Of a DNA stretch of 32,587 nt, positions 1-11,307 are shown piece after piece. The position numbers and the translations under genes were made by a program. Location: positions 1-32,587 of the forward strand of contig JABHBJ010000099.1 of assembly GCA_018673955.1 (NCBI GenBank), given 5' to 3'. Origin of the DNA: Chloroflexota bacterium (GTDB taxonomy: Bacteria > Chloroflexota > Dehalococcoidia > Lucifugimonadales > Lucifugimonadaceae). The notes beneath the pieces were generated by a model. The model ran no database searches. It was not told the DNA's origin and was given only the letters and a program-made list of their open reading frames with translations. Positions within the stretch are counted from its first letter, which is position 1, and each line of letters starts with the position of its first letter.

Positions 1-2542
1 CACCGAGCACGAGTCGTAAATCCGACTCACCAATCTCATCAGCCTCTAGAACCAAGCTCAGCAGTTCACGATTCAAGCTCACGCCGCTCTCGCTCTTCGC
101 CTTGCGTATAGCTGAAATAGCGTCACAAGCCGCTTGGAACGATCCGGTAACTTCCGAAGCCGGAATCGAATCAAGCTCTTCGGGAGTCGGCCAAGGTGCT
201 TTGTGAATCGACAGGTGACCCGTTTCCTCAGCAAACACCCAGCTCCAAATTTCGTCGGTGATAGTCGGAACAATTGGAGCGAACAATCGCAGAACAACGT
301 TCAGGCCCAATCGTAAAGTCGCAACTGCCGATGCCCTGCCCGCTGGATCGTCTTCCGAGCGTGACCGGCGTTTTAGAAGCTCAATGTAGTTGTCAGTAAA
401 TGCGCCCCAGAAGAACTTCTCAGTCTGCTGCAGTGCAAATGAGAACTCGAACTTCTCGAATGCCTCTCCCGCCGTTCGAACCACCTCTTTGAGCTCAGCA
501 ATAAATGCTCTATCAAGCTCGTTTACGATCGGCCCATCTTCGGCGGTCTGACCCAGCACGAACTTACCGGCGTTATAGAGCTTGGTGACCAGCTTGCCGC
601 CGATCTTGAATATCGCCTCGTCGTGCGATGCGTCAGTGCCCAGCTTGAACGAAGCCGACCAATATCGCACGGCGTCCGCGCCAAACCTGTCGAGCGTATC
701 GACCGGGGTGACCACGTTGCCCTTCGATTTCGACATCTTCTTTCGATCCGGATCAAGCACCCAACCGGAAAGGTTGATGTTGTGCCACGGAACCGATTCC
801 TGATGCAGCATCGCCTTAGCAATCGTGTAGAACGCCCACGTTCGAATGATGTCGTGCCCCTGTGGACGAATGTCCATCGGGAACAATGTGTTCATCTGGT
901 CGTCTTCGTCTCCCCAACGAGCAACGGTTTGCGGGCTAAGCGACGAAGTAAACCACGTGTCGAAAATATCGGGTTCTCCGGCGAATCCACCGGCAAGTCC
1001 CCGCTGACTCTCGTCGTAGCCGGGAGCGGCGACCGATTCAGGGTCGACCGGCAGCATGTCAGGTGTTGCAATTATCGCTTGGTCGTACTGTGCTTCACCC
1101 TGGTCGTCGAGCGGGTACCAAACTGGAATCGGAACCCCAAAGTAACGCTGACGCGAAATACACCAGTCGACGTTCAAATTCTCAGTCCAGTTTTCGAACC
1201 GTTTGCGCATAAACTCGGGATGCCAGTTGATCTTACGACCCATTTCGATCATCTGATCGGTTTTGTCGAGCATTCTTACGAACCATTGGCGAGTTGTCAG
1301 ATACTCGAGAGGACTGTCGCCCTTCTCGTAAAATCTAACTGGGTGCTGAATCTGTATGGGTTCATCCTGCAAAGGCGCACCATTACAGGTCGAGGAGTTC
1401 GCAGGATCTCGCATGAGATCAACAACTAACGACTTAGCAGAAGGTGCGCGCTTGCCAACGATCGTCTGATAATTCTCATTCGCCTTTTCAGGATTCGTGC
1501 TGGCCCAGCCATCCTCGCCGCCAAACTTGTGATCGAGAATACGACCATTTCGACCCAGTATCTGGCGAAGCTCTAGTCCCTCTTCACGCCACCATGCAAC
1601 GTCAGTTTGGTCACCAAAAGTACAAACCATAAGAATTCCGGTCCCTTTTTCAGGATCGGCTTCAGCGCTAGGGAAAATCGGAACTTTGGCGAAGAACCCA
1701 GGAGTTACGGCGTGCTTACCGAACAGACCCTTGAACCGCTCGTCGTCGGGGTGAGCCGTAATGCCCACACAAGCCGCGAGCAATTCAGGTCGAGTAGTCG
1801 AAATCACGAAACTTTTAATCGGTGTATCTTCTTCGAATACACCGAATTCAATGTCGTGATACGCGCCACCTTTTTCTCGATCCTCAACTTCAGCCTGTGC
1901 GACCGCTGTCTGAAAATCAACGTCCCACATGGTCGGTGATTCGAGCTGGTACACGTGGTTTTTCTCGTGAAGATCTAAGAAGCTACGCTGAGCGATTCGA
2001 CGACTCTTGTCGTCGATGGTCGCATACTCATCGCTCCAATCGATCGAGTAGCCCATGCGATCGAACGTTTCCTTGAAAACGATCTCGTCCATCTCGGTAA
2101 CAACTCGGCAAAGCTCGATAAAGTTCTGCCTGTTGATTACTAACTGTCTGTCCTTTTTAAGACCCAATTCCGCTCGTTTAGCCTCAACGTCGAGGTTTTC
2201 GATGTACGGAACGTTGCGTTCAGCCCGTACTGAGAAATAGTTCTGAACCCGCCGCTCGGTAGGAAGACCGTTATCGTCCCATCCCATCGGGTAGGCAACG
2301 TTCATGCCGGTCATGCGCTTGTACCGTGCCAGCAGGTCCTGGTGGGTGTACGAGAAGATATGCCCGATGTGCAGCGATCCACTGACAGTCGGTGGTGGTG
2401 AGTCGATTACGAACGATTTCTCGCGCGGTGCGTTAGGGTCACGCTTTTCAACGCCCAACTCGCTCCACCGCTTGCGCCAGTGCAGTTCACGCTCACTAAT
2501 ATCAAAGCGCTTTGGAAGATCACCAAACTCAATCGATTTCAA
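1..2542 (-). CDS. valS: Valine--tRNA ligase (ValRS), 3' end beyond the window
   Basis: Class I aminoacyl-tRNA synthetase that charges tRNA-Val in the cytoplasm. About 847 codons are visible with no stop, so only a short C-terminal piece is missing from a family of roughly 850-900 residues. The HIGH signature is at residues 58-61, preceded by PPPTVSGSL, which is characteristic of ValRS. The KMSKS loop (KKMSKSKGNV) lies at about 601-610 and is in frame with the start. The segment GWDDNGLPTERRVQNYF matches the ValRS subtype that has DDNGLPTE after HIGH. I chose the TTG at 2540-2542 because AGGA lies about 12 nt upstream and homology begins right after it. Upstream is a valine T-box leader with a terminator, so expression is probably controlled by uncharged tRNA-Val. 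Confidence 0.96.
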   Translation of the reverse strand, partial: MKSIEFGDLPKRFDISERELHWRKRWSELGVEKRDPNAPREKSFVIDSPPPTVSGSLHIGHIFSYTHQDLLARYKRMTGMNVAYPMGWDDNGLPTERRVQNYFSVRAERNVPYIENLDVEAKRAELGLKKDRQLVINRQNFIELCRVVTEMDEIVFKETFDRMGYSIDWSDEYATIDDKSRRIAQRSFLDLHEKNHVYQLESPTMWDVDFQTAVAQAEVEDREKGGAYHDIEFGVFEEDTPIKSFVISTTRPELLAACVGITAHPDDERFKGLFGKHAVTPGFFAKVPIFPSAEADPEKGTGILMVCTFGDQTDVAWWREEGLELRQILGRNGRILDHKFGGEDGWASTNPEKANENYQTIVGKRAPSAKSLVVDLMRDPANSSTCNGAPLQDEPIQIQHPVRFYEKGDSPLEYLTTRQWFVRMLDKTDQMIEMGRKINWHPEFMRKRFENWTENLNVDWCISRQRYFGVPIPVWYPLDDQGEAQYDQAIIATPDMLPVDPESVAAPGYDESQRGLAGGFAGEPDIFDTWFTSSLSPQTVARWGDEDDQMNTLFPMDIRPQGHDIIRTWAFYTIAKAMLHQESVPWHNINLSGWVLDPDRKKMSKSKGNVVTPVDTLDRFGADAVRYWSASFKLGTDASHDEAIFKIGGKLVTKLYNAGKFVLGQTAEDGPIVNELDRAFIAELKEVVRTAGEAFEKFEFSFALQQTEKFFWGAFTDNYIELLKRRSRSEDDPAGRASAVATLRLGLNVVLRLFAPIVPTITDEIWSWVFAEETGHLSIHKAPWPTPEELDSIPASEVTGSFQAACDAISAIRKAKSESGVSLNRELLSLVLEADEIGESDLRLVLG

Positions 2543-2600: not shown

Positions 2601-2648
2601 AAAAAAACCCATCCAGATCAGAAGTAAAAACTTCTTCAAAGGACGGGC
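2601..2648 (-). terminator. T-box-associated intrinsic terminator before valS
   Basis: On the minus strand CCCGTCC (2641-2647) pairs with GGATGGG (2608-2614) using one G-U pair, and is followed by seven T (2601-2607). The 5' arm lies directly after the T-box sequence, so antiterminator and terminator folds would be mutually exclusive, as in transcriptional T-boxes. Confidence 0.85.
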
Positions 2649-2880
2649 TGACCGCGGTACCACCTTCGTTGAACACAGCCGTAAACATAACGACCACGAA
2701 CCACTCAATTAGCTGTAACGGGGCAACCGGGCGAACTTAGGAATTTCGAAATAAACGAAATATTCAGTCCACCAGCTCGGAGACGACTTCACGGTTGCGA
2801 GGGTTCCGGTTCACACCAACCACCGGATCTCTTTGACCCTACAAACTCGCTACTACTTCTCGTCGAAGCTGATTCAATAT
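2601..2880 (-). promoter_or_regulatory. T-box riboswitch (valine) leading into valS
   Basis: The minus-strand leader of valS carries the hallmark T-box sequence AAGGTGGTACCGCGGT (plus coordinates 2651-2666), which pairs with the tRNA acceptor end in the antiterminator. Upstream is a Stem I-like region with a GGTGTGAA element (GGUGNRA motif, near 2810-2817) and an AGTAGTAGCGAG segment resembling the loop-E side. On the 3' side of Stem I, GAAGTC contains the likely specifier codon GTC (2785-2787), a valine codon that agrees with the downstream gene. A competing terminator follows the T-box. The 5' boundary is approximate. The promoter probably lies near 2885-2925, but no convincing -35/-10 pair is visible. 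The T-box motif is seen directly; the Stem I fold and the specifier are inferred. Confidence 0.92.
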
Positions 2881-10848: not shown

Positions 10849-11196
10849 TCAGATCAATTCGTCGTATGCGCCCTGTTTGAACCCAAACACAATCTGATCG
10901 CCGTCAGTGAGCATCGGTCGTCTTATCAAGCGAGGTTGCTCGATCATCAACTCGATGAGTTCGTCATCGGTAGCTCTACCGCGAAGTTCTCTAAACGGCT
11001 TCGAACTTGGGCTTTTCCACGCAAACATTTCGTCAACCGATGTTAGATCGCTCAGTTTTTTAATTTCAGCTGCCGAAAGCTGTTCCTTAAAGAAATCACG
11101 AAATTCGTACTCAGCGTTCGATTCATTGAGAACCCGACGGGCTTTCTGGCAAGTACTTCAACGCGACCAGCAGTAAAACTTCAACTCTTTGGACAT
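10849..11196 (-). CDS. ArsC/Spx-family thioredoxin-fold protein, probable selenoprotein (in-frame TGA = Sec13)
   Basis: Reading 11196 to 10849 gives a 115-residue ArsC/Spx-like protein only if the TGA at 11158-11160 is decoded. The N-terminus reads LKFYCWSR-U-STCQKARRVL. Aligned with Spx (LYTSPSCTSCRKAR) or ArsC, the TGA falls exactly on the catalytic cysteine, giving U13xxC16. The remainder shows ordinary family features: EFRDFFKEQLS, ELIELMIEQPRLIRRPM (the family RRP motif) and a DGDQIVFGFKQ strand, ending in a genuine TGA at 10849-10851. AAGGAG lies 9 nt before the ATG. A hairpin suitable as a bacterial SECIS lies just downstream of the UGA. It probably acts as a thiol/selenol oxidoreductase; arsenate reduction is not assured. 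Standard gene callers would truncate or miss it. selA/B/C/D are not in this window. Confidence 0.85.
11129..11160 (-). promoter_or_regulatory. Candidate bacterial SECIS element at the in-frame TGA
   Basis: Directly after the TGA (11158-11160) the minus strand can fold AGAA (11144-11147) with TTCT (11129-11132), and inside it CCC (11139-11141) with GGG (11133-11135), closing a GTC loop. An AG bulge sits between the two helices. The loop begins with G at the 20th nucleotide after the UGA. That matches the known preference of bacterial SECIS for a G at the top of a small apical loop about 16-37 nt from the UGA. The fold was drawn by eye with no energy calculation. Confidence 0.6.
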
Positions 11197-11307
11197 TTAT
11201 TGCATCTCCTTGATGTGAATTTAATAGCAAATAAGTGACTCGTTACGACACACTTCTTGCTACCGTAACAATGCGAAGCCATATAGATATTACGATCCTG
11301 ATCCTAG

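Follow-up and report, generated by a model that had tools for sequence, protein, structure and literature searches.

Selenoproteins related to arsenate reductase (ArsC) that carry a UxxC motif are already known from marine metagenomes, as the initial annotation of the gene described here had stated (PMC2398784, PMC1088965). The GOS selenoproteome table contains an entry named 'Arsenate reductase 2', which is assigned to cd03032, carries UxxC, and is given with the number 42, which we take to be sequences (PMC2398784). A UxxS arsenate reductase was described in a survey of the Sargasso Sea (PMC1088965), and two ArsC-like selenoproteins appear in a 2006 survey that names Desulfotalea psychrophila for one of them (PMC1794560). 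Reviews from 2022 and 2026 recognize both UxxS and UxxC families of the ArsC type (PMC9312934, PMC13188914), and the more recent review assigns ArsC-type families TIGR00014 and NF041106, the latter being the UxxC 'Arsenate reductase-like protein' (PMC13188914). In a study of sponges, most bins of symbionts, from various phyla, had SelA and SelB (PMC5649159).

SAR202 bacteria are described as abundant in the dark ocean, and Candidatus Lucifugimonas marina JH1073 is a cultured SAR202 bacterium (PMC10444878). Literature searches for selenoproteins of SAR202 or Chloroflexota, and for ArsC-like or Spx selenoproteins, returned among the papers listed no report on this gene or on other selenoproteins in SAR202, and 'selen' was absent outside the reference lists from the text of several SAR202 papers. 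The gene examined here lies on a stretch of 32,587 nucleotides (the window) from a genome of 2.21 Mb (103 contigs, 87.1% complete) that is congeneric with Candidatus Lucifugimonas marina (SAR202, Chloroflexota). The nearest named contig belongs to Chloroflexi MAG SI053_bin67, with 97% identity in the ArsC-like protein. These kin suggest that the whole order belongs to SAR202.

An ArsC/Spx-type gene with an in-frame TGA codon

The gene occupies positions 10849-11196 of the minus strand, which is open through a TGA codon at 11158-11160, as the initial annotation had stated. When this TGA (UGA) is read as selenocysteine (Sec), translation yields 115 residues including Sec13 (M...CWSR-U-STCQKAR...ELI), and the frame then ends with a TGA stop codon at 10849-10851. 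Codon 13 forms the first position of a UxxC motif that is closed by Cys16 (TGC, 11149-11151), and a Shine-Dalgarno-like AAGGAG at 11206-11211 is located 9 nt ahead of the ATG start codon at 11194-11196. Pfam ArsC (PF03960) spans residues 8-113 of the read-through product with 56.1 bits (E 4.8e-15; gathering score 24), and TIGR01617 arsC_related spans residues 5-114 with 80.7 bits, or 80.5 in a second scan, against a cut-off of 75.05. Because both matches cross the TGA, the two sides of this codon belong to one domain, and the HMMER alignment places residue 13 on C10 of Spx (7f75), the first Cys of its CTSC motif. Thus, the proposals that a single ArsC/Spx-like domain is interrupted by the TGA and that this codon falls on the catalytic Cys of the CxxC motif both hold. 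We estimate a probability of roughly 0.9 that the gene encodes a true selenoprotein, with a predicted thioredoxin-like ArsC/Spx fold of 115 residues and a Sec13-x-x-Cys16 active site.

Without recoding, the same frame retains an ORF of 59 codons (10849-11028). Since a gene caller that does not recode would see these 59 codons or nothing, many annotations probably shorten the gene or miss it. The initial annotation had expected standard annotation of this genome to lose it. The window genome gave a single ArsC-like match at E values up to 1, so that no Cys paralogue was seen in its assembled part. Codon 9 (11170-11172) encodes an extra Cys in the genus, producing the arrangement C9-W-x-x-U13, and elsewhere in the order this position is mostly Thr, Trp, or His.

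The protein is under purifying selection, with a pN/pS of ~0.21 as the mean of 136 pairs within the genus, where synonymous sites are near saturation. Among 97 aligned proteins, residue 13 is Sec or Cys in all 97, Cys16 is conserved in 96, and L23, P88, R93, and P94 are each present in all 97. An AlphaFold2 model has a pLDDT of 93.4, and its first helix (residues 14-25) begins directly after Sec13. Spx and ArsC-like proteins are the top Foldseek matches to this model, and entries titled Spx reach TM-scores of 0.79-0.89 by query length at 26-29% identity.

The neighbors of the gene within the window are a divergently oriented MFS gene and, on the downstream side, an enoyl-CoA hydratase-type gene. 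The neighborhood changes from lineage to lineage, and the neighbors to which a name can be given appear to have housekeeping or metabolic roles. When the neighbors (MutS, a MutL-like ATPase, an SDR, homoserine dehydrogenase, a PPIase, and others) were checked for a clue to function, none was found and no substrate was named. MutS makes up the upstream cluster in 36 of 138 loci (L081, L090, L098, and similar loci), with Pfam MutS_I on one member, and a mutL-looking gene lies downstream in 49 of 138, for which Pfam gave only an ATPase domain on the scanned part. Elsewhere in the window, a T-box leader (2636-2875, minus strand; Rfam RF00230, 111 bits) precedes a gene for a class I tRNA synthetase (2-2542, minus strand; Pfam tRNA-synt_1) that extends past the window edge. 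From its sequence, we take this synthetase gene to be valS, probably.

Codon 13 and the selenocysteine machinery in related genomes

The window genome, which is 87% complete, contains selA, selB, selC, and selD, on whose presence the initial annotation had made its reading depend. Scores are above the respective cut-offs for SelA (515.9 bits), SelD (363.2 bits), SelB (326.9 bits, or 345.8 when the neighbor in frame is added), and tRNA-Sec (66.4 bits), and ARAGORN reports a tRNA-SeC with a TCA anticodon. The tRNA-Sec model also matches tRNA-Ser genes in this genome, one of them above the cut-off, and we therefore used SelA and SelB as the presence tests across the order. The selD gene of the window genome itself holds one in-frame TGA. 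In the genus, selD was matched in 17 of 19 genomes searched, and one in-frame TGA is present in 17 of 17 loci (L021 and the genus selD loci). The frame was located in 11 of these 17 loci (a wrong frame was obtained in 6), and a hairpin with a GGU-type loop lies farther downstream in 9.

Among the matches listed, 10 of 12 genus genomes first matched the SelB model only over positions ~2-350. At the selB locus G000:C46 (L009, L014, L200), G000 shows a second piece at 536-580 of the model. Many other genera match the SelB model end to end, and some other genera are also split. The SECIS-binding part of SelB in the genus may have diverged.

The read-through protein, with Cys substituted for Sec, was used as the query against 197 genomes drawn from the order and was matched in 144 of them. 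Counted per genome, codon 13 is TGA in 136, TGC or TGT in 8, and without a match in 53. Counted per locus, with named duplicates and outgroups included (n = 173), it is TGA in 152, TGC or TGT in 19, and something else in 2, namely one fragment and one distant hit that is out of register. In a draw across the phylum, a match was obtained in 47 of 400 genomes, and 42 of these showed one TGA among the matches listed. Inspection of 28 loci from this draw found TGA directly before xxC in 27 and Cys in one, with four of the loci aligned one codon aside. One of the 28 (L261) belongs to the window's own order, and the remaining 27, from other orders and classes, have TGA in this position in 26 cases. 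A scan of viral contigs found no relative of the protein.

SelB scored above the cut-off in 175 of the 197 order genomes and SelA in 169. The 14 genomes that fall below both cut-offs comprise 1 with TGA, 2 with Cys, and 11 without a match, as opposed to 135 with TGA among the other 183 genomes (Fisher p 9.7e-7, kinship uncorrected). The lone TGA genome in the former group is G149, which is 55% complete. Among all 136 TGA genomes, 4 have SelA with SelB under the cut-off, 9 have SelB without a SelA match, and 1 has neither. SelA and SelB are both present without a match to the ArsC-like protein in 34 genomes. Overall, most of the genomes drawn from the window's order retain both the machinery and the TGA gene.

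The Cys form occurs in all five genomes drawn from genus g7, where SelA and SelB are present, and also in G031 and G042, which have neither protein, and in G041, which has SelB and no SelA. Because g7 keeps SelA and SelB yet encodes Cys, Sec seems not to be essential for function. Quick protein trees show 5 changes of the Cys label with outgroups (177 rows) and 4 within the order (145 rows), on trees in which many forks are open due to the small number of alignment columns. An independent-pairs test of the Cys state against SelA absence yielded 4 pairs only, with a mean of 2.7 in the expected direction and 0 opposed, which is not significant. The order thus offers repeated Sec/Cys differences, some alongside absence of the machinery, plus two hairpin positions (see below) within one gene family.

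These distributions bear on two explanations that do not involve Sec. A pseudogene, or an assembly or sequencing error, would require that the TGA arose by chance in a Cys gene, and such a change from TGT or TGC takes one substitution in a sequence known from a 103-contig assembly of 87% completeness. However, the recurrence of TGA at codon 13 in 136 of 197 order genomes means that chance is not a reasonable account, and the same codon precedes xxC in nearly all inspected loci of other orders and classes. The initial annotation had noted that a random nonsense mutation would rarely hit this codon. A one-contig genome from the window's genus (G086) also carries the TGA gene. Furthermore, homologues have TGA or Cys at codon 13, the frame behind it is open, and the selection described above acts downstream of the TGA, with no pseudogene decay. 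These comparative data refute the pseudogene and error explanation. Genome-wide reassignment of UGA, or its read-through as Trp or another residue, is consistent with the open frame alone, but the gene itself ends in TGA, as do 2 of 20 large window ORFs that were picked. Moreover, 19 of the 21 loci without TGA have Cys at the aligned codon and 0 have Trp, and the genome contains a dedicated tRNA-Sec together with SelB. We therefore give reassignment almost no probability and retain the reading of the gene as one that encodes a selenoprotein.

A hairpin downstream of the TGA codon

Published criteria for bacterial SECIS elements specify a loop of 3-9 nt with G in one of the first two positions, located 16-37 nt from the UGA, an upper stem of at least 4 bp, and an MFE of -7.5 kcal/mol or lower (PMC13188914). 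The hairpin of the window gene (11128-11146, minus strand) has 7 bp with one 1x1 mismatch and an apical loop GUC at 11136-11138. It conforms to the published rule in its loop, in the 19 nt from UGA to loop, and in its stem (5 bp unbroken), and deviates from it in energy, with -4.8 kcal/mol for the bare hairpin and -6.3 in a 45-nt fold. Thus, the SECIS-like hairpin that the initial annotation had cited in support of translation does exist as a short structure, but it is thermodynamically weak. In a scan of bare hairpins, the -7.5 limit is passed by 3 of 26 genus loci, 85 of 126 other TGA loci, and 1 of 19 Cys loci.

In TGA genes from other genera, a hairpin of 7 bp with a 5-nt loop lies behind the TGA (A1, 120 distinct stretches of 48 nt aligned without gaps). 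Here, 96.7% of 840 cells are paired, and 5 of the 7 pairs have changes on both sides, a number reached by 6 of 500 shuffles. The covariation score is 0.484 versus 0.280 in shuffles, none of which (0/500) is as high, and slid registers all score far lower. The full set of 7 pairs is present in 111 of 125 sequences from outside the genus versus ~1% of synonymous randomizations, although the hairpin was discovered on these same sequences. The Cys loci (n = 19) retain 0-4 of the 7 pairs. Of the 7 usual pairs, only 3-4 are present in five TGA loci from outside the genus (L093, L102, L106, L109, L198), and four of these loci (L102, L106, L109, L198) have CGTGGCTCCACG behind the TGA in place of the usual hairpin. 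L178, which is also low in pairs, contains an N.

We rejected the register of the other genera for the window's genus, where only 19.3% of cells would be paired. The hairpin of the genus is shorter and lies 4 nt closer to the TGA, and its closing pair and loop are C-GUC-G in 14 of 17 distinct sequences, a combination also seen in the other register in 12 of 121 distinct stretches. In these 17 sequences, 99.2% of 119 cells are paired. Covariation within the genus is modest, with two pairs changed on both sides in 4 cells. As many such pairs occur in 73 of 500 shuffles, and the score is reached in 7 of 500. By inspection, the distant genus g143 of f74 in the same phylum has a hairpin that resembles this one and lies in the nearer register. 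A conserved and covarying family hairpin is therefore found outside the genus, whereas covariation within it is weak. The window's own copy is weak, and the case for a SECIS element there rests on how well the hairpin is conserved among congeners and on the covariation seen in the other genera. Comparison across the family shows a codon that is either TGA or Cys, that accompanies the machinery, and that is followed in most members by a covarying hairpin.

Candidate functions and relation to known families

The protein is most likely a Sec-dependent reductase of the thiol-disulfide type, for which arsenate would be one candidate substrate among others. Sequence and comparative evidence support a model in which SelB and Sec-tRNA(Sec) decode the UGA at codon 13, aided by the small hairpin with its G-U loop just downstream. 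In the catalytic step that we propose, an oxidized substrate, which might be a disulfide, an oxyanion, or another oxidized thiol, would be positioned close to the invariant Arg93-Pro94 and attacked by the selenolate of Sec13. The resulting adduct would be resolved by Cys16 to give a selenenylsulfide, which thioredoxin or a comparable reductant would presumably reduce to regenerate the protein.

Two more specific functions were weighed against this general one. An arsenate reductase with Sec as its nucleophile would fit the Pfam ArsC match and the invariant Arg-Pro pair, whose Arg we take to be R94 of ArsC. A Cys-containing relative from Nitrospira (L070) exceeds the cut-off of the arsenate reductase model TIGR00014 (115.1 versus 106.05 bits). 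Nevertheless, we consider this function unlikely for the window protein, which scores only 37.4 bits with that model. No ars gene was recognized in the 20 largest neighbor clusters (13 named by Pfam and 7 by eye) across 138 loci, in which some genomes are represented twice. In addition, ArsC of one type uses a single Cys and is coupled to glutaredoxin, from which the UxxC pair differs. An RNA polymerase-binding regulator of the Spx type, with the Sec-containing U-C pair as its oxidant sensor, is less probable still. Spx is among the closest solved folds, R93-P94 aligns with R92-P93 of Spx, and the score of 80.5 bits exceeds the 75.05 cut-off of TIGR01617, a model named for Spx/MgsR RNA polymerase binding. 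However, just 3 of 10 order proteins scanned with scores pass this cut-off, and the window protein falls short of all three Spx models: NF002459 (43.8 bits, cut-off 123), NF009885 (37.4 of 152), and NF009210 (35.9 of 159). Likewise, the positions of R47 and G52 in Spx, which we take to contact the alpha subunit of RNA polymerase, are occupied by Asp50 and a gap in the alignment. A redox regulator of transcription in which an Spx-type polymerase partner uses the Sec-Cys pair, in place of a disulfide, as its switch is quite improbable, and we favor the thiol-disulfide-type reductase.

This gene is a real selenoprotein gene of an ordinary kind, present in most genomes drawn from the SAR202 order and also elsewhere in Chloroflexota. 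It is also carried by a strain of the genus that is in culture, which makes the prediction directly testable.

Among the described proteins, Spx of B. subtilis and SACOL0876 (2m46) share the fold and the position of the CxxC motif with the window protein but have Cys where it has Sec, and Spx further differs in the polymerase-contact residues R47 and G52, which are not kept. The UxxS arsenate reductases (TIGR00014; Sargasso Sea, GOS) have the ArsC fold with Sec at the catalytic Cys, whereas the window protein has UxxC and scores 37.4 against a cut-off of 106.05. NF041106, the ArsC family (seleno)protein model, resembles the window protein in being ArsC-related, with UxxC and either Sec or Cys, but the window protein reaches only 40.4 bits against a cut-off of 85. 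Comparison of NF041106 with alignment A4 gave a weak match in 83 of 97 members (best E 2e-10), and by comparison with the window protein these members lie far below the cut-off. A search with this model at 1e-12 matched 0 of 118 order genomes, but the control genomes also gave 0 matches.

A close description is that of the GOS 'Arsenate reductase 2', which in its table row is likewise marine, with an ArsC/Spx-type domain and UxxC. We take its domain model, cd03032, to be ArsC_Spx. That entry comes from metagenomes and no organism is named in the passages that describe it, whereas the window gene is placed in SAR202 genomes. By this table description, the window family is probably the same as, or overlaps with, 'Arsenate reductase 2'. 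What is new is the assignment to SAR202, together with an ArsC/Spx subfamily that is missed by one NCBI ArsC selenoprotein model, NF041106.
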